From Anthocerotibacter panamensis C109 (GTDB lineage: Bacteria; Cyanobacteriota; Cyanobacteriia; Gloeobacterales; Anthocerotibacteraceae): a DNA stretch of 64,000 nt. Position numbers and translations under genes: made by a program. This document shows, piece by piece, positions 637-26,601 of the stretch (the stretch's first letter is position 1; every line of letters begins with the position of its first letter). The notes beneath the pieces were generated by a model, which was not told where the DNA came from, did not search any database, and saw only the letters and a list, made by a program, of their open reading frames with translations. The DNA is taken from assembly GCF_018389385.1 (NCBI RefSeq), contig NZ_CP062698.1, positions 3,504,667 to 3,568,666 of the forward strand, in the 5' to 3' direction.

Positions 637-697
637 GGCTAACGATCAAGCTCACCTGCGGAGAGAAGGGGAGTCAGGTGCATGTGGCTGGTTGGCC
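637..697 (-). other. attC recombination site (integron cassette end)
   Basis: Read on the minus strand the outer boxes are GGCCAAC and GTTAGCC, pairing at 6 of 7 positions. The inner boxes are CACCTGAC and GCAGGTG, which pair completely except for one bulged A. An unpaired base at this place is the hallmark of a single-stranded folded attC site. The arms AGCTTG and the L boxes match the attC at 13,988-14,054, and the orientation is the same. The 61-bp length is normal for an attC. It implies that the array once reached, or was copied to, this position. Confidence 0.75.
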
Positions 698-11630: not shown

Positions 11631-11697
11631 GCATAACGTTTGAATTCACCGGCCTGCGCGGCTTTTCGCGCAGGTCCGGTGGAATGATGGGTTGGGC
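11631..11697 (-). other. attC recombination site
   Basis: Minus-strand outer boxes are GCCCAAC and GTTATGC. The inner arms CACCGGACCTGCGCG and CGCGCAGGCCGGTG form a 14-bp stem interrupted only by one extra A, with a short AAAAGC-type loop. Length (67 bp), box spacing and the single extrahelical base are those of a genuine attC. It closes the cassette with the GHKL-nuclease gene. Its right flank (11,701-11,714) repeats a 14-bp motif also present next to the attC at 13,988. Confidence 0.88.
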
Positions 11698-11888
11698 TGT
11701 TTCGCTATTCGATTGGGGATTTTCACTTCTCAAAGCAGTTCATATCTTTTCCTGTTTTATGCCAATTTTCTAGACAGATGCACGGTTTAAACTGCCAGAA
11801 CCCTTACCCAGAGTAGATCTATTTTTGCATTCAGGGCAAAAAATGGTATTAGGATTCAAGTAGACCAGACTATTTTTCTTCTATTAGT
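11698..11888. other. cassette 3' untranslated region
   Basis: No gene. Contains TTCGCTATTCGATT at 11,701-11,714 followed by about 30 bp resembling the flank of the attC at 14,054, so two cassettes share the sequence just ahead of their attC sites. Confidence 0.5.
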
Positions 11889-13871
11889 TCAATCAGGAAT
11901 TAATACTTCGCAACCCTGTATGGCACTATTAGCATCAAGATTTTCTATAACTTGGTTTGCATTATTCTTAGATGAAATAAGTTTTGAACGTTCTAAGTCA
12001 AGCTTGTCATATAGAAAACGATGCCGGAGTTCAAATTCTGTGAAAATCTCACTCCATTTCTTTACGTAAATCTTGTAGTTATCGACGTAATATGCAAGGG
12101 ATCTTTCACCATGATGTTTAGCGTTTTTTATCTCACGCTCAATATAATTAGTCTCGCTGAAATCATTACCAACAAGGAAAAAATCCCATGTCATATTTGA
12201 GGCGTTAAATTCTTCTTGTTCAAGAATAACGCTCATGTACTTTTTAACCTGCTCAAGCTCTTTTCCTCCAAGATTCAGATTTGGGTGCTTTAACTCTATG
12301 ACTACATTGCTAATATGGTCATCTTTATGAAGCTGCCTAACCATAAAAATATCCATTTCTTTATTTTTGTCTGAATGGTTGATAGCAACCAATGGTTTCT
12401 CGCCTCGCAGATGAAATATATATCTACGCAGTGCCTTTTCGAACTTTGGTTCTGCCGCTGTTATAAGATGATACTGCTCGCCAAAGATCCAATAGTGTTT
12501 TTCAATGAATTTTTGAATGTGGTCACGTTCATTTGCGTTCATAGCCTTGTTAAAAACAAGTTCTTTGAGCTCATTTATCGCCGTGTATCTATCTTCTATC
12601 AATCTTATTGTCTTAATTATATTAGATAATTTTGAAACTTTCAGACTCTCTGAAAGTTGCTGTAATTCGGAAGATTCAAGCTTCACAATTTCACCAAGTA
12701 TGTCAATAAGCTTACCTCTTTCACCTGAATCAATAATCAAGTTAATAAAATGCACAATAACCTTCTTTTGCTCTACATTTAAGCTGCCAAATATTTTAGG
12801 TTCAACTTGGTAAAGCTCTTTGATAAAATCTTCAAGCTCTTGCCTTCTGTATTGATCCCAAGTATTATTTCTGAATGTTGGAAATATATGACTTTTTTCA
12901 AAATCTTCAACAATCTTTTCTGCTGCACCTCTGAGAAAGGGACGTCTTTTCTGTCTGAGAAATACGTCGACGCTCTCAATTAGCTCTTCATATACTTTTC
13001 CATCATCTGTGAATCTAGCAATCGTTCCTTCGAAGAAAGGGACAGACTTTGAATTAAAAAAGTTGCTTTTTATGTAAATACTGTGAAAAAATTTATCTCC
13101 TTTATTATTAAGCGTGGTAGTCCTTGTGCATTTTTCAAGATTATCAGAATCGATAAAATAGTATCTAGAATACTCCCTATTTAAACCCTCTTTCCACCTG
13201 ATAAACTTAATATCGAACTGATATTCTTGTAATTTCAGACAATAATCCTCCTGTTCTCCAACAATAGCTGAAGTATAATTCACTGGCTCCCCATTGATTT
13301 TCAAGGAAAAATATCTAAGTCTATTCAATTCAAGAAACCATGCGAACTCTTTACAAATAAATTTGTAAATTTCATCTGTAAAGTTATGTTGCGTGATGGT
13401 ATGTATTCCACTAAAAATTACAGTTGTTCCAGCACTTTTATCGGTTAGTTGAGGTTCAGATGGCGAGAAATTATGAAGTGAGTTTCCATGTACTTGTATT
13501 GTCTGTTCATAAAATCCATCTTTTCCTTTATATACTGTTTTCCAAGTCGCAGATTCTGCAAATGTGAAAAATGTTAGTCTACCAACGCCATTCTTACCAT
13601 GCGTAGCTGAAGAGACTCTAATTTGAGATGGATCTATTTCTTTTTCTGACTCAAAAATGGGTTTAAACTTGTTAATATCCCTTATACCATAACCATTATC
13701 AGTAATTGAAATTGTAGAAATATTACCAATTGCATTGGCTTCAAAATCAACAGATACTTCGCAGGCATGAGCATCAAAACCATTCCATATATATTCGGAG
13801 ATAGAACGGGAGTAATCATACTTTTTGAGAGCTCTCCGAATGCCTTGTGAGGTAATTTCAATATTCTTCAT
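11889..13871 (-). CDS. GHKL ATPase fused to PD-(D/E)XK-like nuclease, putative defence protein
   Basis: 660 residues. The N-terminal part is a GHKL ATPase: SEYIWNGFDAHA (N box), ISITDNGYGI (DxGxG box) and HGKNGVGRL (second Gly box), as in Hsp90/MutL/TopoVI ATPases. A helical middle region with RQKRRPFLRGAAEKI follows. The C-terminal 200 residues hold KHYWIFGEQYHLI, KEMDIFMVRQL and VVIELKHPNLNLGG, with Asp and E-x-K spaced as in PD-(D/E)XK nucleases; the WIFGEQY start resembles Shedu-type (DUF4263) domains. Proteins with a sensor ATPase joined to a nuclease are frequent in antiphage systems. The gene is a single-gene cassette, strikingly AT-rich, without own partner. The defence role is inferred. 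Confidence 0.75.
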   Translation of the reverse strand: MKNIEITSQGIRRALKKYDYSRSISEYIWNGFDAHACEVSVDFEANAIGNISTISITDNGYGIRDINKFKPIFESEKEIDPSQIRVSSATHGKNGVGRLTFFTFAESATWKTVYKGKDGFYEQTIQVHGNSLHNFSPSEPQLTDKSAGTTVIFSGIHTITQHNFTDEIYKFICKEFAWFLELNRLRYFSLKINGEPVNYTSAIVGEQEDYCLKLQEYQFDIKFIRWKEGLNREYSRYYFIDSDNLEKCTRTTTLNNKGDKFFHSIYIKSNFFNSKSVPFFEGTIARFTDDGKVYEELIESVDVFLRQKRRPFLRGAAEKIVEDFEKSHIFPTFRNNTWDQYRRQELEDFIKELYQVEPKIFGSLNVEQKKVIVHFINLIIDSGERGKLIDILGEIVKLESSELQQLSESLKVSKLSNIIKTIRLIEDRYTAINELKELVFNKAMNANERDHIQKFIEKHYWIFGEQYHLITAAEPKFEKALRRYIFHLRGEKPLVAINHSDKNKEMDIFMVRQLHKDDHISNVVIELKHPNLNLGGKELEQVKKYMSVILEQEEFNASNMTWDFFLVGNDFSETNYIEREIKNAKHHGERSLAYYVDNYKIYVKKWSEIFTEFELRHRFLYDKLDLERSKLISSKNNANQVIENLDANSAIQGCEVLIPD

Positions 13872-13987
13872 GAACTTTTTTCCCTGTGTTTAGATTAAAT
13901 TTTATTTGGGAACTGATTTTCACCCAACCGTGCGGACAGTGAATTCCTTTCTTCGCCAGTGCCATTGAAAATTTCTCTCCTGCTGCG

Positions 13988-14054
13988 GCCTAACAACCAA
14001 GCTCACCTGCAACGCCCGCTTTGGGGTGGTGTCAGGTGGAGCGACTGGTTAGGC
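13988..14054 (-). other. attC recombination site
   Basis: The clearest site of the window. Minus-strand boxes GCCTAAC and GTTAGGC are perfect reverse complements and fit the RYYYAAC/GTTRRRY consensus. CACCTGAC and GCAGGTG pair except for one bulged A. The spacer segments GTCGCTC and AGCTTGG do not pair, as expected of the unpaired central spacers. Length is 67 bp. It closes the cassette that carries the subtilase/AAA pair. Confidence 0.93.
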
Positions 14055-14057
14055 TTG

Positions 14058-14128
14058 TTCGCTATTCGATTGGTGAGTTTCACTGTCTCAGGCTAGTTCA
14101 TATTTCTTTCTAAATTCGCTATTCGATT
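14058..14128. repeat. 14-bp motif repeated beside attC sites
   Basis: TTCGCTATTCGATT occurs at 14,058-14,071 and 14,115-14,128, and again at 11,701-11,714. In all three places it is upstream of an attC in cassette orientation (reads AATCGAATAGCGAA). The rest of 14,129-14,305 shows no gene. The motif may be part of the cassette 3' end or a protein-binding site. Confidence 0.6.
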
Positions 14129-14305
14129 AATTTGTTCAGCAAACTCAAATCAATACTATTTTCTTGCTTCGCTGTTTAGCAACTGGGCTTGATAACGGCT
14201 AGTAAATTCGGGCTTCCCCGCTAACTGTTTATATTCCGCCACGGCAACTATTTGTTAAATAGAACTTTCTTTGTACTCTGTAACAAGAATTCGACTAATA
14301 GCAGT

Positions 14306-16945
14306 TCAGGAAATAGTCATCTGTACTTCCTGCTGTACTTGCAAAGGTTGCTGAACTTGAATAAATGCATCATAAATTGAAATTTCTGAATTAACGGCTT
14401 CAAAACTAACAACCAAAGAATAGGGTGCAGTTGCTTCTGAGCTTTTATTCCACCCCTCATGTCCAACGACTGCAATGCAGAAGCCCTCACGCAGATCATA
14501 GGACTGCACTTTTGCCCAGTCCTTTTGGACGGTTCCTGTACTTCTAGAAATCTCTTTCACGATCCCATCAATCCCCCTTGGTCTTCGTTGATCGTCGCTG
14601 TTGGGTCTGAATTGTCGTTTGCCAAGAGTCCAACGAAATAAGCCTTCACCTTCATCAGCATCTTGCGGTGCCTCATTATATTTTTTGAGTACTCTGTCTA
14701 GAAACTTTTGAGGATCTTCTCCTTTTTTACTACATGTCCAATCGAGCCATGTAGATAAATATTTCCTGCGATGGCGACGAGTACGACGAGGTTCAGCAAC
14801 GTAGGACAGAGTAATTTCAATAAGAATATCAAAGCCTTCACCTTGCCTTAAGAGAGTTTCTGGTATTTGAACTTGATAAACTTTAGCTTGTCGAGCACAG
14901 ATCCTTTCGTTTCCTTGGGTTGTTAAGGTTACACGGTTGGCAGAATTACCTAAAGCTCGACCAAGACTAGGAATACCGTAACCCATCGTCCGAACGCCTT
15001 GATACAGTTTTTCAACTGACTCGTTTGTCCAGTTAGGCAGACGTGCCGATTGAATGATGAGAGCACGGTAAAACAAAGCACTTTCTTGTGGAAACGCTGC
15101 TGCCAGTGCAGCGGCAATATGAGCAACTTTCGGAGCAGCAAACGAAGTTCCTACTGCATCAGCACTGACAGCTTTACCACCATCAAGAGTGGATCGAACT
15201 AGCTCAGGGCAGACGGATGGTGGTTTTGTGAAACTTGGTGAAGTAGATGAGTCAATTACATAGTCTCCCCCATACTCTACTACTTCCGGTTTAATCGTGT
15301 CCCAAATTCCCAAGCCCGAGCAGGAGAATGATGAAGGGTAATCTGCTTCTGCTATCGATTTAAAAGGAGGATTCTGATAGCTGCTATGAGAAACTGAACC
15401 TACTGTCAGTGCTTGAAAACTTTGAGCAGGATTTGCGACTCGTGCAGAAGGAGACAATAAGTAATCTGGATAAACCCGCGCAGCTTGCATGTGTGCGGAA
15501 ATAGATGGTCGAGTAACAAAACTTACATTTGCCTCAATATTGCCCGCAGCAACAATAAATAGAAAATCCCCTTGTTTCTCCCAAGTCAGCTTATCTATTG
15601 CTGCTGCCCAAGGAGTCATTGATTGGGTTCGACAAGGAGAAATACCTGCAACTGAGTGATTAAAAATACGAGTTCTGGTTTGATAATGATAGAATTCTAC
15701 GATCTCTTCCAGTACTTTAGGGGGAAATAGTTTTTTAGGTAGTTGGTTACCACCATCAAGAATTCTGGCATTTTGAACCCAACATGTTGCCTTCTGAAAA
15801 CCTGTTGAAGGAATTCCGCGAGGATAAAGAATCGCACCAGCAACTCTAGTGCCATGCCCGCCGCCTTGAACATAGTCAGCAGTCATGTCAAGCTCTCCAG
15901 GTACCCAGGATCTAGAATGTTGGGAATCGATCGCACCTCGTAATTTCGGATGAAGTTCCTGAATACCACTATCAATCACGCAAACTTTAGGTGCATTCGG
16001 ATCAGGCGCTTCTAGCGTAAATATTTCTCGATCGGAATCAGATTCATTAGGTGTAACTGAAGGGGCACTAAATTCATCAGGTTCACTGACATCAAAAATA
16101 TATGGGAAATTAAGAACAAGATCCTTTAACCCTTTTCCAAGAATCCGAATGCGGCATGAGAAACAGTCTGGCAAGCGCGAAGTTCCTATCTCGTCACCAG
16201 CTACATTTCGCAGAATTTCACCATTGTATTGGTTGATAAATTCCTGGAGTTTATCTGTGCGTTCTGAATATAGATCGTCCCAATCTTCAGGAGATAAATT
16301 GTGCTTGTCTAACCATTGATCTACGCGATTCTGATATCTTTCATCACTCTCAGATTCTTTGCGCTTAGGACATCTTGAATATTGTTCTTGAATGTTGATG
16401 CAGGAAATGCCAATGTCTACAATATATTCCTGTTGCTCAAGAATTTGGTTCCACTCAGCTTTAAGACCATCAGAAAGAATATATTCTGGACGTCGAGTTC
16501 CTTCTAAGATCTCCCAAATTTCTGGAACTTTTCCCCCTCCTCTTTGAGATTTGATAAACTGCTCAATCTTTTTTCTGAGTTCTGATAGCTCCGTATCAGC
16601 AGAAGCCCCGATAATATATCCATGTTCTAAGTCCGCAACTACTTCAATTCCAAAGCTTTTTAATGCATCTGCATCAAATAAATCGGGATCTACCTGTAGG
16701 ATGAAGGATACTGCATCTGGCAATTCAGGTTTGCCTTCTTCCTTGCGTTTTTTCTTCTCTTCTTTCCAGTTTGTGGTGATTAGATCAACTGATGATTTTA
16801 GCTTACTGCCATGTCCCCCGGCGTCCCCTCTATTTGCCAAAGTGATTGCAGAAACCCTACCGCCACCACCCGGAGGGGCAGATGCAATTCCTTCCTTAAC
16901 TAAACGAAGTGAGAGATGAGGAAATTGATTGGATCTATCAGGCAT
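14306..16945 (-). CDS. ietS: subtilisin-like serine protease of an IetAS-type antiphage pair
   Basis: 879 residues. The S8 catalytic triad is visible: Asp in KVCVIDSGIQELHP (about 330), His in GGGHGTRVAGA and Ser in AVGTSFAAPKVAHIAAAL; the oxyanion Asn is in FIVAAGNIEANVS. About 300 residues of charged N-terminal domain precede the protease and a 200-residue beta-rich C-terminal domain follows. No signal peptide, so it acts in the cytoplasm. The start overlaps the end of the AAA ATPase gene by 8 bp, giving translational coupling. This order (AAA ATPase, then large subtilase) is that of the IetAS defence system, in which both proteins are needed. The pair forms one integron cassette ended by the attC at 13,988. 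Confidence 0.85.
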   Translation of the reverse strand: MPDRSNQFPHLSLRLVKEGIASAPPGGGGRVSAITLANRGDAGGHGSKLKSSVDLITTNWKEEKKKRKEEGKPELPDAVSFILQVDPDLFDADALKSFGIEVVADLEHGYIIGASADTELSELRKKIEQFIKSQRGGGKVPEIWEILEGTRRPEYILSDGLKAEWNQILEQQEYIVDIGISCINIQEQYSRCPKRKESESDERYQNRVDQWLDKHNLSPEDWDDLYSERTDKLQEFINQYNGEILRNVAGDEIGTSRLPDCFSCRIRILGKGLKDLVLNFPYIFDVSEPDEFSAPSVTPNESDSDREIFTLEAPDPNAPKVCVIDSGIQELHPKLRGAIDSQHSRSWVPGELDMTADYVQGGGHGTRVAGAILYPRGIPSTGFQKATCWVQNARILDGGNQLPKKLFPPKVLEEIVEFYHYQTRTRIFNHSVAGISPCRTQSMTPWAAAIDKLTWEKQGDFLFIVAAGNIEANVSFVTRPSISAHMQAARVYPDYLLSPSARVANPAQSFQALTVGSVSHSSYQNPPFKSIAEADYPSSFSCSGLGIWDTIKPEVVEYGGDYVIDSSTSPSFTKPPSVCPELVRSTLDGGKAVSADAVGTSFAAPKVAHIAAALAAAFPQESALFYRALIIQSARLPNWTNESVEKLYQGVRTMGYGIPSLGRALGNSANRVTLTTQGNERICARQAKVYQVQIPETLLRQGEGFDILIEITLSYVAEPRRTRRHRRKYLSTWLDWTCSKKGEDPQKFLDRVLKKYNEAPQDADEGEGLFRWTLGKRQFRPNSDDQRRPRGIDGIVKEISRSTGTVQKDWAKVQSYDLREGFCIAVVGHEGWNKSSEATAPYSLVVSFEAVNSEISIYDAFIQVQQPLQVQQEVQMTIS

Positions 16946-17996
16946 GAGAAGCTAGAATGTCTTGAATCGATTCTTCTAGATGTTCTTGAATAACTAACTC
17001 CTCTCTATCTAAGATAGCTCGCTTTGCAGCATCCTGGGCGGCCCTAACAATTTGTGCAGCGGAGAAATTAGTCATTTTTTGTACAATCGAGTTCCAATCG
17101 ATTGAACCTACTTCAACTGAAGAAAGTGTCTGTTTTAGGATAGCCCTAATTTCTGGCTCTGTCGGCTTTAGTACTTCAATAGCATCATCAAATCTTCTCC
17201 ATACAGCTTCATCCAGAAACTTAGTTAGATTAGTTGCGGCAACCAGTAAACCATTTGAGACTTCATATTCGTCAAGTAATTGAAGGAATGTATTGACCAC
17301 ACGCTTAATTTCTCCAACTTCTTGACTGTCTTCACGAGACTTGGCAAGCGCATCACATTCATCAATAAAAAGCAAACAAGGAGTCGCAGCAGCAGTTTCA
17401 AATACTTCACGTAAGTTGGTTGCAGTTTCTCCCAGATAGGAAGACACCATTGCGTCAAAACGAACCTTGACCAAGGTTAACCCTGTATTCCAAGCAATGC
17501 GCTCAGCCCCCATGGTTTTACCGCAGCCTGGGGAACCGTAAAGTAGGATTTTTTGGCGATAGCGTAACCCGTGATGGACAAGTCGATCACGAGCAGCATA
17601 TTCCCGTTCAATGCGGCAGAATCGGGTTTCAACAGCATCCGAGAGAATCATGTGATGCCGCAAAGAGTCATGAGGAACCGTAACAATAAAAGGATGATTA
17701 AATCGATGCTTACTCGATAAAAGCGTCAAAGATCGAGCGTCAGCAATTTTAGAGATAGTATGATTTGAGGTCGCTGAAGGGATTCCTTCATGGGGAGCTG
17801 CTGATAAAGCTTCGGGCTTAGAAAAGCGAGTAGTTTTCCGGACAATGTTTTCGAGCTGCTCGGCAAGACTGGTATGCCCTAGCTTCCGTTCTTCTTCAAC
17901 TACAATGGACAGCATGCTCTGTATCGCCTGTGAATCTTCACTGGCAACAGCACGGAATAAACGTTTCAGCACATCTCCTTTCATCTTGTGACCCAT
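16938..17996 (-). CDS. ietA: AAA ATPase of an IetAS-type antiphage pair
   Basis: About 352 residues from ATG 17,996; ATG 17,984 is also possible. An N-terminal helical region (residues 1-70) and a basic linker lead to an AAA core: Walker A LYGSPGCGKTMGAERIA, Walker B LLFIDECDALAKSR, sensor 1 LLVAATNLTKFLD and an Arg finger stretch AVWRRFDDAI. C-terminal helices end in LEESIQDILASHA. The protein is of the single-domain FtsH/Cdc48-like class and soluble. Its stop overlaps the subtilase start. It presumably senses infection or feeds the protease. Confidence 0.85.
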   Translation of the reverse strand: MGHKMKGDVLKRLFRAVASEDSQAIQSMLSIVVEEERKLGHTSLAEQLENIVRKTTRFSKPEALSAAPHEGIPSATSNHTISKIADARSLTLLSSKHRFNHPFIVTVPHDSLRHHMILSDAVETRFCRIEREYAARDRLVHHGLRYRQKILLYGSPGCGKTMGAERIAWNTGLTLVKVRFDAMVSSYLGETATNLREVFETAAATPCLLFIDECDALAKSREDSQEVGEIKRVVNTFLQLLDEYEVSNGLLVAATNLTKFLDEAVWRRFDDAIEVLKPTEPEIRAILKQTLSSVEVGSIDWNSIVQKMTNFSAAQIVRAAQDAAKRAILDREELVIQEHLEESIQDILASHA

Positions 17997-18208
17997 CGCC
18001 CACAAATATCTTCCCTGCTCTTACAATACCCAAGTTCTCCGAAACCTTTGCAAAACTTTACAAAATGCAAGGATAATACTTTGATGGAGCAGTGCCGACA
18101 ACAAGAGGATATCAAGATCCCGATCACGTGCCTAAATTCTAAAAAGCCTTAGGTGGATTTTCAGAATAGTTCAGGAGTGGTTTGGTTCACAAAGGCAATA
18201 GATGCTGT
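17997..18208. other. cassette 5' region of the ietA-ietS cassette
   Basis: About 210 bp between attC-like site B and ietA. No open frame. Cassette genes usually rely on a promoter outside. The length would allow one here, but I do not see a convincing -35/-10 pair. Confidence 0.4.
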
Positions 18209-18277
18209 CTAACAAGGGATTATGCAGCAGTCCATCTGCCGACTTGGAGGATAACCAGCGCTTTTGTAATGTTATAC
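18207..18277 (-). other. attC-like site B (end of the 314-bp repeat)
   Basis: Minus strand runs GTATAAC to GTTAGAC, boxes that pair at 6 of 7 positions and, for the second box, fit GTTRRRY. The 71-bp content is the same as in site A except for one core-box base (GTTAGAC versus GTTAGGC). The inner stem is weak. It would separate the first, nearly empty cassette from the ietA-ietS cassette. Confidence 0.5.
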
Positions 18278-18522
18278 AGCACAGAAGGCATGAATTGCTC
18301 CTCAAGGGTTGCTCAGTCACTCAGCAGCGTTCAAAAATAGCTTACGCGGCCTTCGGCTAAGACAAAACTTCTCCCTCAACGCTTTACCCAGTAAGGCACC
18401 TATTGGGAGGCTCTTTAACTTAGTAGAGTGAGTCGCCCGGTGGCAAACTTAAAAATTGGGAGTGAGAATCGGGCTTTTCCTTGCGCTGAGCTTAATTTAG
18501 CAGTCGGGCAAGAGAGCATCAA
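18209..18522. repeat. 314-bp direct repeat, copy B
   Basis: Gap-free partner of 10,075-10,388. The left half is identical and the right half carries nearly all of the differences, as if part of it had been homogenised by recombination. The two copies flank an 8-kb segment with three cassettes. Recombination between them would remove that segment as a circle. Confidence 0.9.
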
Positions 18523-18594: not shown

Positions 18595-19216
18595 GTGGCG
18601 AACAAGAAATTCCCCGAACTTGATCCTAGGTTTGATAAAGTGCTGGCTGCGAAGGGCATTCCGCAAACACGCTGGGCGCAGTACCGCAAGTGGGTGCGCT
18701 TCTACTTGGACTTTTGCGATAAGTATGGGTATCCACTGACTGACCTAGGAAGTATCCCGCCGTTTGTCGATAAAAGGACAGACCGAACAGCAGCAAGCTG
18801 AAGCCCAGCTAGCGGTTGGCTATTACACCGAGTTGTTCAAGCCACCACTGGAACCGAAGAAACTGCCTCCCCCCGCAAAATTGCCACCTGTCCCACAACC
18901 CGTGTTAGCTCAAAGGGTGCCTGGGGCTAAAGAGGAATCGGTGAGTGGGGCCTGGCAGATCGTCGCCGACAAGCTCAAAGAACAAATCCTGTTGCGCCAT
19001 TACTCACCCCAAACCTTAAAGTCTTACTCTATCTGGATGTGGAAACTCAGTCGATTTCTGGAGAATAAGTCGCCTGAGACGGTCACAACCTCCGATGTAC
19101 AGCGCTTTCTGGCGGATTTAGCGGTTCGACAGCAAGTCTCCGCCTCCGCCCAGAATCAGGCATTTCATGCGCTGTTATTTCTGTTTCGCTATGTGTTCAA
19201 GCGCGACCTTGGCGAC
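18595..19216 (+). pseudogene. intI: integron integrase, frameshifted and lacking the catalytic domain
   Basis: From GTG 18,595 the protein reads FPELDPRFDKVLAAKGIP and YRKWVRFYLDFCDKYGYP, the N-terminal extension seen in many environmental IntI proteins. At about 18,771-18,775 an A-run has lost one base. The +1 frame resumes with GQTEQQQAEAQLAVGYYTEL and gives the core-binding SAM-like domain LLRHYSPQTLKSYSIWMWKL, ending in QNQAFHALLFLFRYVFKRDL. After that a CRISPR repeat begins. The catalytic Arg, HxxR and Tyr motifs and the IntI-specific insertion are therefore missing. It cannot recombine, so the cassettes to its left are frozen unless another recombinase acts. Orientation is divergent from the cassettes, as expected. 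Confidence 0.85.
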
Positions 19217-19239
19217 CTTCGAGATACGCCACGGGCCAG

Positions 19240-19341
19240 GTTCCAATTGGCGAGTTTCCCTTTTAGGGATTGAAACGGTGCAGCCGACCCCGAAAAAGTA
19301 CTGGGTTTCACGTTCCAATTGGAGAGTTTCTCTTTGAGGGA
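19240..19341. CRISPR. CRISPR remnant, two repeats and one spacer
   Basis: A 37-nt repeat at 19,240-19,276 starts GTTCCAATTGG and ends in GGGATTGAAAC, the ending typical of cyanobacterial type I and III repeats. A 35-nt spacer (19,277-19,311) follows, then a second repeat from 19,312. This one has three substitutions in 30 nt and loses its last 7 nt at the 3' side of tRNA-Pro. No cas gene is in the window. A degenerate terminal repeat is normal at the end of an array, so this is probably the trailer end of a lost one. Confidence 0.75.
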
Positions 19342-19342
19342 A

Positions 19343-19416
19343 TCGGGATGACAGGATTCGAACCTGCGGCATCTGCGTCCCAAACGCAGCGCTCTACCAA
19401 GCTGAGCTACATCCCG
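19343..19416 (-). tRNA. tRNA-Pro (anticodon TGG)
   Basis: 74 nt. Acceptor stem CGGGATG/CATCCCG, D arm GTAGCTCAGCTTGGTAGAGC, anticodon stem CTGCG/CGCAG around loop TTTGGGA, and T arm with GGTTCGAATCC. CCA is not encoded. It reads CCA/CCG-type proline codons. The accessory block ends at its 3' side, a common insertion point for mobile DNA, and normal genes begin on the other side. Confidence 0.97.
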
Positions 19417-19658
19417 TCTAGACATACTGGCCTTGCCTAGCTTAGCAATAGTGCGTTGCTTGTACAAGAGCAAGAATGCGGTATGGACACTTGCGCCATG
19501 CGCGCTTGAACTTTATGTTGGTATCTGGGAAAATGACGAGCGTTATGAATCAGCCATTCAAAGCCTTTCTCGTTTTTTAAGCCCGCAAGGGCCACATCAT
19601 TGCTTTCCCTAGATGCCCTGTACTATTTGCACCCTACACCTGAGACCCAACGCCCACC

Positions 19659-22410: not shown

Positions 22411-24540
22411 TTACTGGGTATTGAGCGCGAAATCATCGACCAGGAAAGAAGTCTGGAGGGAGCTGTCTTCAGTTCCTACCAGGTAGATCTGGATGGTCTG
22501 ACCTCTATAGGCGGTGAGCGAGTAGGACCGCAACTGATAACTGGTGGATTTGTTGAGGTTCGAGAACGTAGCGAGGGTCGCCAGCACGGTCCCCGAACTG
22601 TTGCGGACCTGGACTCTGAGCGTGTCGAAAGCGGTTGTGGTCGTCGTCTCCGCTGTGGTGATGTTGAGGTAGAAGTTGAGTGTCGCTGAGGTGACCGTGG
22701 CAGGGATGGTCACCGTCTGCTGGAGCGTGTCTGTGTGGGTCGTGCCGTAGCCATCTAGATAGGCTTTCCAGGTGCCGGTGCGCGGTGCCGGAGAAGCAGC
22801 ACTGTCAATGACCCCTGCTGTCGCCACCCAAGGAGCAGCGTTTGTGCCGTTCTCAAAGCCTGGATTGCCTAGGAGTTGACCAACGGGCGGTGGTGGGGTG
22901 GTACCGACTAGTGTGTTGAGTAGCGTGCTCACCACAGGAACGCCAATCCCCGTCACTTGGTCATAGCCCACACCAGCCGTGAAGAGGCCGTTGGAGCCGC
23001 TTGTGATGTCGCGGAAGTTCGTGGTGCCTGACAGTGGATAGAGTCGGGCGTTGAGGAAGCCCAAGGCTCCCAAGCTGGCATTGGCCCGTGCTTGGTTGAT
23101 GAGGGCGATGAAGCCCGCCCATGTAGGAGCAGAAGCGCTGGTCCCACCAATCTGCTGGGTTACCCCATTGACCCGGACGAAGTAGCCGGTGTTGGGGTCG
23201 GCGTCGAGCGCCACATCCGGGACTAAGCGAGTCGTGCCCGAGGGTACCCCTGTCCCGGTTTGCCAGCTCGGACGGCTAAAAAAGGAACTCGTTCCGCCGC
23301 CGCTACCGCCAGTGGTACAAGTTCCAGAACAGGACCAGGCTGTTTCGGTGGAGACCGTACCGCTTGTAGTCAAAGTCAGCCTGGTACCCCCGACTGCCGT
23401 CACGCTGGGGTCAGAAGCGAAGTAGCTCACCCCTGAGCCGCTGGAGCAGAGGTTGTTGCTGCCGTTATCCCCAGAGGAAACTAGGATGCTCACCCCCCCG
23501 CCTGCTATGGAGGCTAGGAACTGGCTGTCGGTGTTTTTCTGGGCGGTAGAGAGGTCTTGCTCACAGGCTCCGAGGCTGATCGAGAGTTGGTGCAACTGTG
23601 GCTGTGTGGGCAGGTCATTGATAATGGCCTGGAAGCCCCTGTCCAGGTTTACGAACGAAAGGTCCGCTGTGCCGTAGATGCGGACTTTGGAGCCGGGAGC
23701 TGTGCCACTGGACCATTCCACATCCAGGGATTCTTCGCCCTGGGGACTGGTGGTGGGGACGCCGCTGACGACGGAGACTTTTTCAATGTTGCTCAGGGAT
23801 TGGCTGACGCCATTAGAACTCCAAAAGCTCGTCAGGTCGCTGTCTAGCGGGAAGCGGTCAATCAAGATAGCGGTTTTTTGGCCGGAGCCAGTCACGCCCA
23901 GACCTGTGGCGCTATAAGCTTTGGTCAGTTCGCTGACCAGATAGGGGGCGGCATTGTTGGTCAGAGGCTTGATGCGGCTGGCGGGGAAGGCTTGCTGGTA
24001 AGGTTGTAGGCCATTGACGCCCAGGACAAAGCGCTCCATATCCGAGGGCAGGTTGGGGGCAGTACGCGCGGCAGTGTATTCCTCCCCCTCCACACTGACC
24101 CGGCTGACCTCGATGCCCAAAGCCTGACGAACTAGAGCCACGCTTCCTTGTACTTCCACGCTCAGATGGTTGGGATAAGTCTCGGTCACAGTGAGACCTT
24201 CGGACTGCAACCACTGGATCAACTGTTGCTGGTCGCGCTCCAAGGGATAGTACCGAGCCGCCATCTCCTCAAAAGGAACGGTCTCCCCCCGGCTGATGCG
24301 CTCACGCAGTTCGTTCAGGTTGCGCATCTTGAGAGCGACCTGAAAGGACATGACATCGCCCGAGCGGGCTTCGCCAAGGACGCGGACATAGTTGGGCAAA
24401 GGGGCAATGCTATCGCGCAACTGGGTGCGGGGGGCTGCCTGGGTAGGGCCACAGGTCAAGGCCAATAGGGCCAACACGGGAGCAGATGCAACAAAACGCA
24501 ACAAAACACGAGACGCTTGGGCAGAGATGCGCCTAGACAT
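22411..24540 (-). CDS. secreted S53 family serine-carboxyl peptidase (sedolisin) with C-terminal binding-like module
   Basis: 709 residues from ATG 24,540; a TTG 27 bp upstream is less likely. Signal peptide ending in GPTQAAP. An activation propeptide (residues 40-190, MEFQVAL-like SFQVALKMRNLNELRERISR) and the catalytic domain follow. The Glu/Asp pair is in EESLDVEWSSGTAP, the oxyanion Asp in LVSSGDNGSN and the Ser in GGTSASAPTW. The calcium site is in the GFLNARLYPLSG...FRDITSG stretch. After GTTPPPPVGQ comes a beta-sandwich of about 150 residues (LLGNPGFENG...FLVDDFALNTQ) like carbohydrate-binding or MAM modules. Sedolisins digest protein at acid pH outside the cell. It is a paralogue of the gene at 24,973. 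Confidence 0.92.
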   Translation of the reverse strand: MSRRISAQASRVLLRFVASAPVLALLALTCGPTQAAPRTQLRDSIAPLPNYVRVLGEARSGDVMSFQVALKMRNLNELRERISRGETVPFEEMAARYYPLERDQQQLIQWLQSEGLTVTETYPNHLSVEVQGSVALVRQALGIEVSRVSVEGEEYTAARTAPNLPSDMERFVLGVNGLQPYQQAFPASRIKPLTNNAAPYLVSELTKAYSATGLGVTGSGQKTAILIDRFPLDSDLTSFWSSNGVSQSLSNIEKVSVVSGVPTTSPQGEESLDVEWSSGTAPGSKVRIYGTADLSFVNLDRGFQAIINDLPTQPQLHQLSISLGACEQDLSTAQKNTDSQFLASIAGGGVSILVSSGDNGSNNLCSSGSGVSYFASDPSVTAVGGTRLTLTTSGTVSTETAWSCSGTCTTGGSGGGTSSFFSRPSWQTGTGVPSGTTRLVPDVALDADPNTGYFVRVNGVTQQIGGTSASAPTWAGFIALINQARANASLGALGFLNARLYPLSGTTNFRDITSGSNGLFTAGVGYDQVTGIGVPVVSTLLNTLVGTTPPPPVGQLLGNPGFENGTNAAPWVATAGVIDSAASPAPRTGTWKAYLDGYGTTHTDTLQQTVTIPATVTSATLNFYLNITTAETTTTTAFDTLRVQVRNSSGTVLATLATFSNLNKSTSYQLRSYSLTAYRGQTIQIYLVGTEDSSLQTSFLVDDFALNTQ

Positions 24541-24855
24541 AAGGATGGGACTCCGGGGAGATGACAAGAAAAGGGTAATTGGGGTCGGCTATTCGCACAT
24601 AGACCAGGGTTGATAGTACATCTGCTACTTTGCCTACTCCAGTATCAATAAGTACTTTTTATCGAGATGATTTGTAAACTTTAATTGACTTAATGGTGCC
24701 TGGTATTAGAGCGTCTGTTTTCCTGGGTCTGACACATAATTTACATAGGTTTGTCATTTGAATGGCACGATTTTATAGTAGTCAGAAATTCCTTAATCAA
24801 ACTTGGATAAGTTAGATCCCTCAGAACTTACGGTTGGGTTTGCGAAAGGCTGCTA
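24541..24855. other. upstream region of the first sedolisin
   Basis: About 315 bp without a gene. AT-rich around 24,640-24,790. The promoter of the minus-strand sedolisin must lie here, but I see no clear box pair. Confidence 0.4.
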
Positions 24856-24897
24856 CAGAGACTGCGATACAGGGACTGCGATACAGAGACTGCGATA
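24856..24897. repeat. three 14-bp tandem repeats
   Basis: CAGAGACTGCGATA, CAGGGACTGCGATA, CAGAGACTGCGATA in direct succession, just beyond the terminator of the second sedolisin. No further role seen. Confidence 0.85.
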
Positions 24898-24920
24898 TGG
24901 ATGAGGGCTATGCTCATCCA

Positions 24921-24952
24921 TAAAAAAGGCTCCAGCCTAATAAGCTGGAGCC
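24921..24952 (-). terminator. terminator of the second sedolisin gene
   Basis: Arms GGCTCCAGC (24,928-24,936) and GCTGGAGCC (24,944-24,952) with a 7-nt loop. On the minus strand a run of six T follows. It begins 21 bp after the stop of the S53 gene. Confidence 0.92.
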
Positions 24953-24972
24953 TGTAGGAAAAACTTTGGGTG

Positions 24973-26601
24973 TTAGGGCGAGAGCGTGGTCAGTAAGGTG
25001 CTGAAGACGGGCACGCCAATACCATTGGTCTGGTCATAGCCCGGTCCGGCGGTGAAGGCTCCATTGCTCCCCGAGGTGATGTCACGGAAATTGGGGGCAC
25101 CGAAGGGCGCAGTCGTTCCGATCAACGGGTAGACGCGGGGGTTGAGCAAGCCCAGAGGCGATAGACCTTTACCGATCCGCGACTGGTTGATGAGGGCGGA
25201 CAGCGCGTTCCAAAGTGGAGCAGAGACACTGGTACCACCAAACTGGAACGTGGACCCGTTAAAAATCACGTACACCCCGGTATTCGGGTCGGCGACAAGG
25301 GATACATCCGGGACCAAGCGCGTTCTACCACTGGGAACCCCTACCCCTACTTGCCAACTCGGGCGGGCAAAGAAGGAACTGGTCCCCCCGCCGGTAGCCG
25401 AGTTGTTGTTGTTAAACCAAACCACTTCACTGGTGACCGCGCCCGTAGTTTGGTCCAACGTCAGGGCAGTACCGCCGACAGAGGTCACGCTGGGGTCAGA
25501 AGCGGGATAGCTGACCCTCCGGTTGCCCCGGATGCAGTTGTTGCGTGAGCCACTGTCCCCTGAGGAGACATACACACTGACGCCAGCCGCTGCCATCGAC
25601 GCGAAGAACTGCGATTCGGTGGTCAATTCGGCGTTGGAGACCAGTTGCTCACAGGCTCCGAGGCTGATCGATACCTGATGCAAGTCCGGCTGGGTGGGCA
25701 GATCGGCGACGAGTTGGCTGTAAGCCCGGTCCAGGTCAACAAAAGAGAGGGAGCCGGAAGCATAGATACGGACTTTGGCTGCCGGAGCAAGACCGCTCGT
25801 CATCTCAACGTCCAGAGTCTCCTCTCCAGACCGTGTACCAGAACTGGCACTACCGCCGACTGCTACTTTCTCGATATTGCTGAGGCTCTGGGGGATGCCC
25901 TGGTTGGCCCAGAAGGTGGTCAAGTCGCTATCGAGGGGGAAAACGTCGATGACAATGCCCATTTTTTGTCCAGAGCCGTTGAGCGTCCCGGTCACGTTAT
26001 AGGCCGTCTTGAGGTCGTTGATCGAGAAGGGTGGTCTGAAGGGATTGGTCGGACTAAAAGGCTGGGCTTTGCCAAACTTTTCGGCGTGCTGGTAAGGTTG
26101 CAGGCCATTGACGCCTAGGACAAAAGCGCTCAAGGACTCCGGCAGGCTGGGGATGGCGCTCGTCGCCACGTAGGACTTGCCCTCCACTACCACTTGGGAG
26201 AATTTAACCCCGAGGGCCTTCTCTACCTGAGCGGCGGTACCACGCACGACGACATTTAAGCGATGCGGGTAGCTCTGGACAGTCAAACCCTCACCCTTGA
26301 GCCAGTTCAACAGACTCTGGTGGTCGGCAGCAAGCGGGTAGTAGCGGGCTTCCATCTCCTTGAAGGAGAGGGTCTCGCCTTGGGCGATCCGGGCTTGCAA
26401 TTCATCAAAATTCCGCATCTTGAGCGCTACCTGGAATTCCATGGGTGCACTGGCACGGGCTGCACCCTGTACCTGGACGTCCGAAGTAAACGGTTGGATG
26501 CTGTCTGGGAGCACTGCGCGTCCAGTGGGAGCAGCCTGGACACTTATAAGCGGAACACTAAGCGCACAACTGAAAGCTAAAAGCCATTTTTTGAAAGACA
26601 T
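24973..26601 (-). CDS. secreted S53 family serine-carboxyl peptidase (sedolisin)
   Basis: 542 residues. Signal peptide FKKWLLAFSCALSVPLISVQA. Propeptide with MEFQVALKMRNFDELQARIA and GLTVQSYPHRLNVVVRG. Catalytic Glu/Asp in EETLDVEMTSGLAPAAK, Asp in VSSGDSGSRNN, Ser in GGTSVSAPLW, calcium-binding end in NFRDITSGSNGAF. It lacks the extra C-terminal module of its neighbour at 22,411. The two share whole stretches (such as FDELQARI versus LNELRERI and the LQPYQ motif), so they arose by duplication, but each has its own terminator. Confidence 0.94.
   Translation of the reverse strand: MSFKKWLLAFSCALSVPLISVQAAPTGRAVLPDSIQPFTSDVQVQGAARASAPMEFQVALKMRNFDELQARIAQGETLSFKEMEARYYPLAADHQSLLNWLKGEGLTVQSYPHRLNVVVRGTAAQVEKALGVKFSQVVVEGKSYVATSAIPSLPESLSAFVLGVNGLQPYQHAEKFGKAQPFSPTNPFRPPFSINDLKTAYNVTGTLNGSGQKMGIVIDVFPLDSDLTTFWANQGIPQSLSNIEKVAVGGSASSGTRSGEETLDVEMTSGLAPAAKVRIYASGSLSFVDLDRAYSQLVADLPTQPDLHQVSISLGACEQLVSNAELTTESQFFASMAAAGVSVYVSSGDSGSRNNCIRGNRRVSYPASDPSVTSVGGTALTLDQTTGAVTSEVVWFNNNNSATGGGTSSFFARPSWQVGVGVPSGRTRLVPDVSLVADPNTGVYVIFNGSTFQFGGTSVSAPLWNALSALINQSRIGKGLSPLGLLNPRVYPLIGTTAPFGAPNFRDITSGSNGAFTAGPGYDQTNGIGVPVFSTLLTTLSP

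Follow-up and report, generated by a model that had tools for sequence, protein, structure and literature searches.

The genome of the cyanobacterium Anthocerotibacter panamensis C109 (Gloeobacterales) contains a pair of overlapping genes that encode an AAA ATPase and a large subtilase, and this locus raises two questions: whether the pair is an antiphage module of the IetAS type, and whether it is carried as an integron cassette. We studied it in a stretch of 64,000 nucleotides (hereafter the window; all positions without a prefix refer to it) and in the context of the genome, which consists of one contig of 4,187,797 bp. The reading that we consider best supported, with a probability of about 0.72, is that an IetAS-type module occupies the attI-proximal position, as a cassette, in a chromosomal integron that has decayed, and that its protease IetS would be restrained by IetA and act through abortive infection.

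The two reading frames overlap by 8 bp (16938-16945) in the order ietA-ietS, and the same 8-bp overlap is present in the five closest relatives (L062-L066). The true start of ietA may be at 17984 instead of 17996, because the AAA proteins of the relatives begin at a methionine that corresponds to residue 5 here. For the ATPase, the best match was the PADLOC IetA profile PDLC02196 (E=3.7e-79; TRIP13 just 1e-20), next to Pfam AAA (2.9e-30) and weaker matches to the PAN and FtsH ATPases. For the 879-residue subtilase, the best match was the PADLOC IetS profile PDLC02198 (E=1.2e-53); eight IetS models match, as does Pfam S8 (2e-32). This PADLOC comparison had been proposed together with the original prediction, and it bore out the IetAS gene order; the best matches were not to unrelated AAA or secreted subtilase families, the outcome that had been named as speaking against the assignment. 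The NCBIfam antiphage equivalogs, in which the names are spelled IteA and IteS, also match both proteins, with scores far under the cut-offs (227.9 of 510 bits for IetA with NF042959, and 118 of 900 bits for IetS with NF042956). Because the PADLOC matches are best while these scores stay under the equivalog cut-offs, the pair classifies on its profile scores as a diverged IetAS branch, homologous to the NCBI equivalog but not a member of it.

Intact catalytic and nucleotide-binding motifs had likewise been predicted, and they hold up in wider alignments. In IetS, the catalytic residues D325, H364 and S601 and the oxyanion residue N469 are invariant among 49 homologues, while 11 IetA homologues share Walker A (GSPGCGKT, 154-161), Walker B (LLFIDE, 208-213), the sensor-1 residue N256 and R267/R268. 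Comparisons with the relatives L062 and L064 gave dN/dS values of about 0.08-0.2 for the pair, which indicates purifying selection and thus that the genes are kept up. No hydrophobic signal segment was found in residues 1-60 of IetS (highest 19-residue hydropathy 0.64), in agreement with the cytosolic location proposed earlier. We considered and rejected IetS as a member of a secreted subtilase family; the sedolisin-type proteases of the window (22411-26601) belong to a different family. These neighbouring proteases (22411-24567 and 24973-26601) have pro-kumamolisin activation domains and are unrelated to IetS. An AlphaFold model of IetS from an alignment with 49 diverse homologues reached a pLDDT of 83.5; a run with 10 close homologues (pLDDT 42.8) was set aside. 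The best PDB fold match of the model was the pro-subtilisin ProN-Tk-SP, and KP-43 was also matched. In the predicted layout, a propeptide-like N-terminal domain precedes the S8 core, which is followed by a beta domain at the C terminus. A sequence search found no solved IetA or IetS structure.

The claim that the pair shares one attC as an integron cassette could be examined at both ends, and the positions of all features are collected in Table 1. Two neighbouring elements had been missed earlier: an integron-integrase pseudogene with attI directly upstream of the pair, and a second attC cassette (11637-13993) directly downstream. The integrase remnant matches TIGR02249 (1.2e-21) over the N-terminal third only and is divergent from the cassettes, which is the canonical integron layout. 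Alignment of the three integron copies in the genome showed that attI is conserved. Identity between copies A (155 kb) and B (3.497 Mb) extends to GTTGGGC, beyond which each continues into a different cassette; we therefore placed the cassette junction at the attI core, which reads GTTAGAC in the window copy. The candidate Pc promoter of the window aligns near TTGACA-18-TAAACT of the intact integron. At the other end, the attC is the only strict RYYYAAC...GTTRRRY hairpin in the 64-kb window. The GC content of the cassette is 0.43, against 0.54 for the window.

Table 1. Features of the IetAS locus and its integron surroundings (window positions).
Feature	Position	Strand	Size	Basis and remarks
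ietA-like AAA ATPase	16938..17996	-	352 aa	PADLOC IetA, Pfam AAA, conserved motifs
ietS-like subtilase (S8)	14306..16945	-	879 aa	PADLOC IetS, Pfam S8, catalytic triad
IetAS gene cassette	13994..18212	-	4,219 bp	Between attI core and attC core
attC of IetAS cassette	13988..14054	-		R'' GCCTAAC, R' GTTAGGC, paired L boxes, extrahelical base
attI core site GTTAGAC	18207..18213	-		Left cassette end, cut between 18213 and 18212; three aligned attI regions
Candidate Pc promoter TTGATG-17-TAAATT	18494..18522	-		Directed into cassette; consensus match only, 8/12
Integron integrase pseudogene	18595..19236	+		One frameshift near 18760, catalytic domain missing
GHKL ATPase of cassette 2	11889..13871	-	660 aa	C-terminal stretch resembles Shedu/DUF4263 nucleases
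attC of cassette 2	11631..11697	-		Covariance model; in training set, score by construction
Third attC	637..697	-		Orientation as other two; outside R1 training set; R1 34.3 bits, E=1.4e-6

The distance between ietS and attC is 251 bp in the window, against 41-100 bp in other IetAS cassettes. With an attC of the local type at such a distance from ietS, the cassette may have lost its original attC. The cassette start TTAGAC would suit an R'' of GTCTAAC, while the attC has GCCTAAC; this is only a hint at an attC swap, as one-base mismatches are found elsewhere among the cassettes of the genome. Similarity (82%) between unrelated cassettes reaches about 115 bp further upstream than the attC (13987-14168 versus L014:8840-9021), so that the conserved unit exceeds the attC in length. 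The protein of cassette 2 matches Pfam HATPase_c_3 (1.5e-13); its resemblance to Shedu is weak, with PADLOC SduA at 4.5e-5 and Pfam SduA_C at 0.004, below cut-off.

Elsewhere in the genome, an intact IntI of 440 aa is encoded at C1:155426-156748 (TIGR02249, 363 bits versus a cut-off of 265), with near-identical attC sites next to it. This protein (L014:5427-6749) is extended at its N terminus by some 125 residues, with a second, weak SAM-like match. A covariance model was built from nine attC sites, including that of the IetAS cassette, whose own score is therefore by construction; in this model, 91% of the cells are paired (23-43% in slid controls) and 12 two-sided changes are present. It detected at least 21 related attC sites genome-wide. 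A sedentary chromosomal integron is a single large array of more than 20 cassettes with homogeneous attC sites; the 21 sites here are similar to one another and are distributed among several loci.

The sites form several arrays, which are rich in other defence-like genes. The first cassette at attI in integron B encodes an AbiTii homologue (L010:11235-12137; Pfam 5e-43), and array A contains a Cap12-type TIR protein and a PDC-S39 homologue (1e-259). A methyltransferase/HerA/unknown trio is found in the 769-kb array, together with a 1,537-aa helicase-nuclease (L077:9075-13688) that is related to PDC-S37 and Hhe and is flanked by two attC sites, of which the second is weak. If both sites are real, this would be a cassette of roughly 5.1 kb.

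The decayed intI copies also share their ends. Those in the window (19237-19341) and at 3.497 Mb (L010:13221-13323) stop at the same pair of CRISPR-type repeats, which are separated by 72 bp, and the segments 19100-19420 and L010:13084-13404 are nearly identical from mid-intI through these repeats into part of a tRNA-Pro gene. The repeat has 171 copies in the genome (up to 3 mismatches); of those listed, most belong to an array at 3.840-3.847 Mb. At its head, copy B shows 98% identity to the intact integron A. Judged from these identities, copy B seems to have arisen by recombination between A and the window copy.

Relatives of the pair can show whether the cassette ends recur. IetA is patchily distributed, with matches in 39 of 386 cyanobacterial genomes (E<=1e-30), and IetAS relatives occur in the same gene order in many cyanobacteria, also on plasmids of Synechocystis and Leptolyngbya. 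We searched 79 IetAS loci from the genome-wide scan with the attC model R2, which had not seen the loci L124 (Phormidium sp. FACHB-1136) or L138 (Oscillatoriales SM2_1_8). In L124, ietS is followed by an attC at 56 bp (E=1.3e-5), and in L138 by one at about 100 bp (E=5.9e-5); by chance, both best R2 matches would fall within 300 bp downstream of ietS with a probability of about 1e-4. Genome G033 (locus L064) has a site resembling the L138 attC 41 bp after ietS, and L120, the sister of L124, has a degenerate attC. At least three other cyanobacteria carry attC-tailed IetAS, and further attC sites are present in the genomes of L124, L138 and G033.

The boundaries of the shared DNA are more telling than the attC sites themselves. 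L138 and L064 have a 3.9-kb block in common (91.6%). It begins with GTTAGAC/GTCAGAC and extends to the attC R', whereas ungapped identity in the 100 bp beyond it is just 23-26%. The DNA shared by L124 and L120 also begins exactly at GTTAGAC. Two genome pairs hence have an exact start at the integron core site in common, and one of them also an exact end at attC; because of these shared ends, we read IetAS as a circulating cyanobacterial cassette. The exact ends also point indirectly to excision and insertion of such cassettes by IntI. By comparison, what the plasmid relative L065 has in common with L124 is limited to the gene body and a short leader. In the IetS tree, the attC carriers fall into two separate clades, and the relative closest to the window pair (L062, IetS 91%) has no attC, so that integron carriage is not needed for function. 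In an empty-site comparison, the flanks of the G033 cassette were not syntenic within its genus. An integron integrase above the cut-off was present in 10 of 194 sampled cyanobacterial genomes, and attC sites around integron integrases of other cyanobacteria were weak matches to our model, which was trained on the Anthocerotibacter genome. The genome of L124 encodes two integron integrases above the family cut-off (L193 and L196), each with one stop inside the matched frame. With attI, attC, an integrase remnant, an intact IntI elsewhere and boundaries shared with other cyanobacteria, the proposed cassette carriage is supported, as is the cyanobacterial host, which is placed in the same class as Synechocystis sp. 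PCC 7338.

The known systems closest to the pair have been linked both to phage defence and to the maintenance of mobile DNA. The IetAS system of pTiC58 (Yamamoto 2009, as cited in PMC5006074) and the PADLOC/NCBIfam family have the same order and motifs, an AAA ATPase followed by a cytosolic S8 protease; the window pair differs as a diverged branch below the equivalog cut-offs and by its location on an integron cassette. IetAS has been classed as antiphage, and in 2023 its mechanism was still given as not known (PMC9958689). In Salmonella genomic island 1, the homologous SgiAT (S026-S025) likewise combines an AAA antitoxin with a subtilase toxin that kills E. coli unless neutralised by its partner (PMC5006074). 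SgiAT resides on an integrative mobilizable element, and that paper does not describe it as an attC cassette.

These precedents also underlie the most serious competing view, in which the pair is mainly a toxin-antitoxin addiction module that stabilises the DNA around it, here the integron remnant or array, and acts against phages only secondarily or not at all. IetAS of pTiC58 and SgiAT both stabilise mobile DNA, a homologous Mycoplasma pair is a functional toxin-antitoxin system, the plasmid-borne cyanobacterial relatives would fit such a role, and toxin-antitoxin cassettes are common in integrons (PMC8618304). However, SgiAT under its own promoter caused no post-segregational killing, and the other cassettes of the Anthocerotibacter genome are defence-like and not only toxin-antitoxin-like. 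We consider a predominantly addictive role less likely, and favour abortive infection by a released protease over array stabilisation, although the two are not separable here. It is still more improbable that the pair serves protein quality control, or that the cassette is no longer expressed, so that it has no antiphage role: the AAA-protease coupling does resemble that of proteolysis machines, in line with the weaker PAN and FtsH matches of IetA, but the patchy distribution, the carriage on plasmids and cassettes and the purifying selection all argue against it. Least probable, and strongly disfavoured, is an ordinary chromosomal pair whose position next to an integron remnant is fortuitous, with an attC belonging to something else, since the 251-bp gap and the attC-free L062 are outweighed by the attI core and integrase remnant directly upstream, the correctly oriented attC, the exact-ended cassette forms in other genomes and the low chance probability of the R2 matches.

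An antiphage function of the window pair is what homology to IetAS suggests, and the abortive-infection reading could work as follows. IetA, a classical AAA ATPase of the Cdc48/PAN type, would hold the latent protease IetS in check, as the antitoxin does in relatives, and link it to an infection cue, while the retained propeptide-like N-terminal domain may keep the cytosolic IetS latent. Disturbance of this control would release IetS, which would cleave cytosolic proteins and arrest or kill the cell ahead of phage spread. The original antiphage screen for IetAS is reportedly that of Gao in 2020. Transcription of the pair, as the position-1 cassette, would start at the Pc promoter of the integron. 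It probably arrived by IntI recombination and, because the local integrase is broken, any present-day mobility would need the intact IntI at 155 kb, which could mobilise it in trans.

Defence genes in integrons had been noted for Vibrio in the original prediction, and this agrees with 2025 reports of antiphage cassettes in Vibrio chromosomal integrons and in mobile integrons (Darracq 2025, Getz 2025 and Kieffer 2025, as summarised in PMC12409362). According to that review, integron defence systems are streamlined, and larger systems, with more than two genes, are absent. IntI and attC were already known in cyanobacteria (PMC8352920, PMC8618304). The open-access literature yielded no paper that connects IetAS with integron cassettes, the one match being, by its title, an E. 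coli genome paper, and no report of an integron in Anthocerotibacter. While defence cassettes as such have thus been known since 2025, the IetAS content, the size and the host are new.

The locus extends integron-borne defence in size, content and host range, to a 4.2-kb two-gene protease system in the first position of an integron of an early-branching cyanobacterium, and indicates that integrons move larger defence units than the small, streamlined Vibrio and mobile-integron cassettes would lead one to expect. A broader view, which we hold tentatively and at somewhat less than even odds, is that IetAS is a recurrent self-contained cassette spreading among cyanobacteria, and that this genome is a distributed defence store with several attI platforms and arrays, one intact IntI that serves them, the abortive-infection modules IetAS and AbiTii in the first, expressed position, and cassettes that hold multi-gene or very large defence units. 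If true, such a store would go against the trend towards small systems that has been reported. The locus and the exact cassette ends common to other cyanobacteria provide testable material for whether these cassettes act against phages, stabilise their arrays, or do both.
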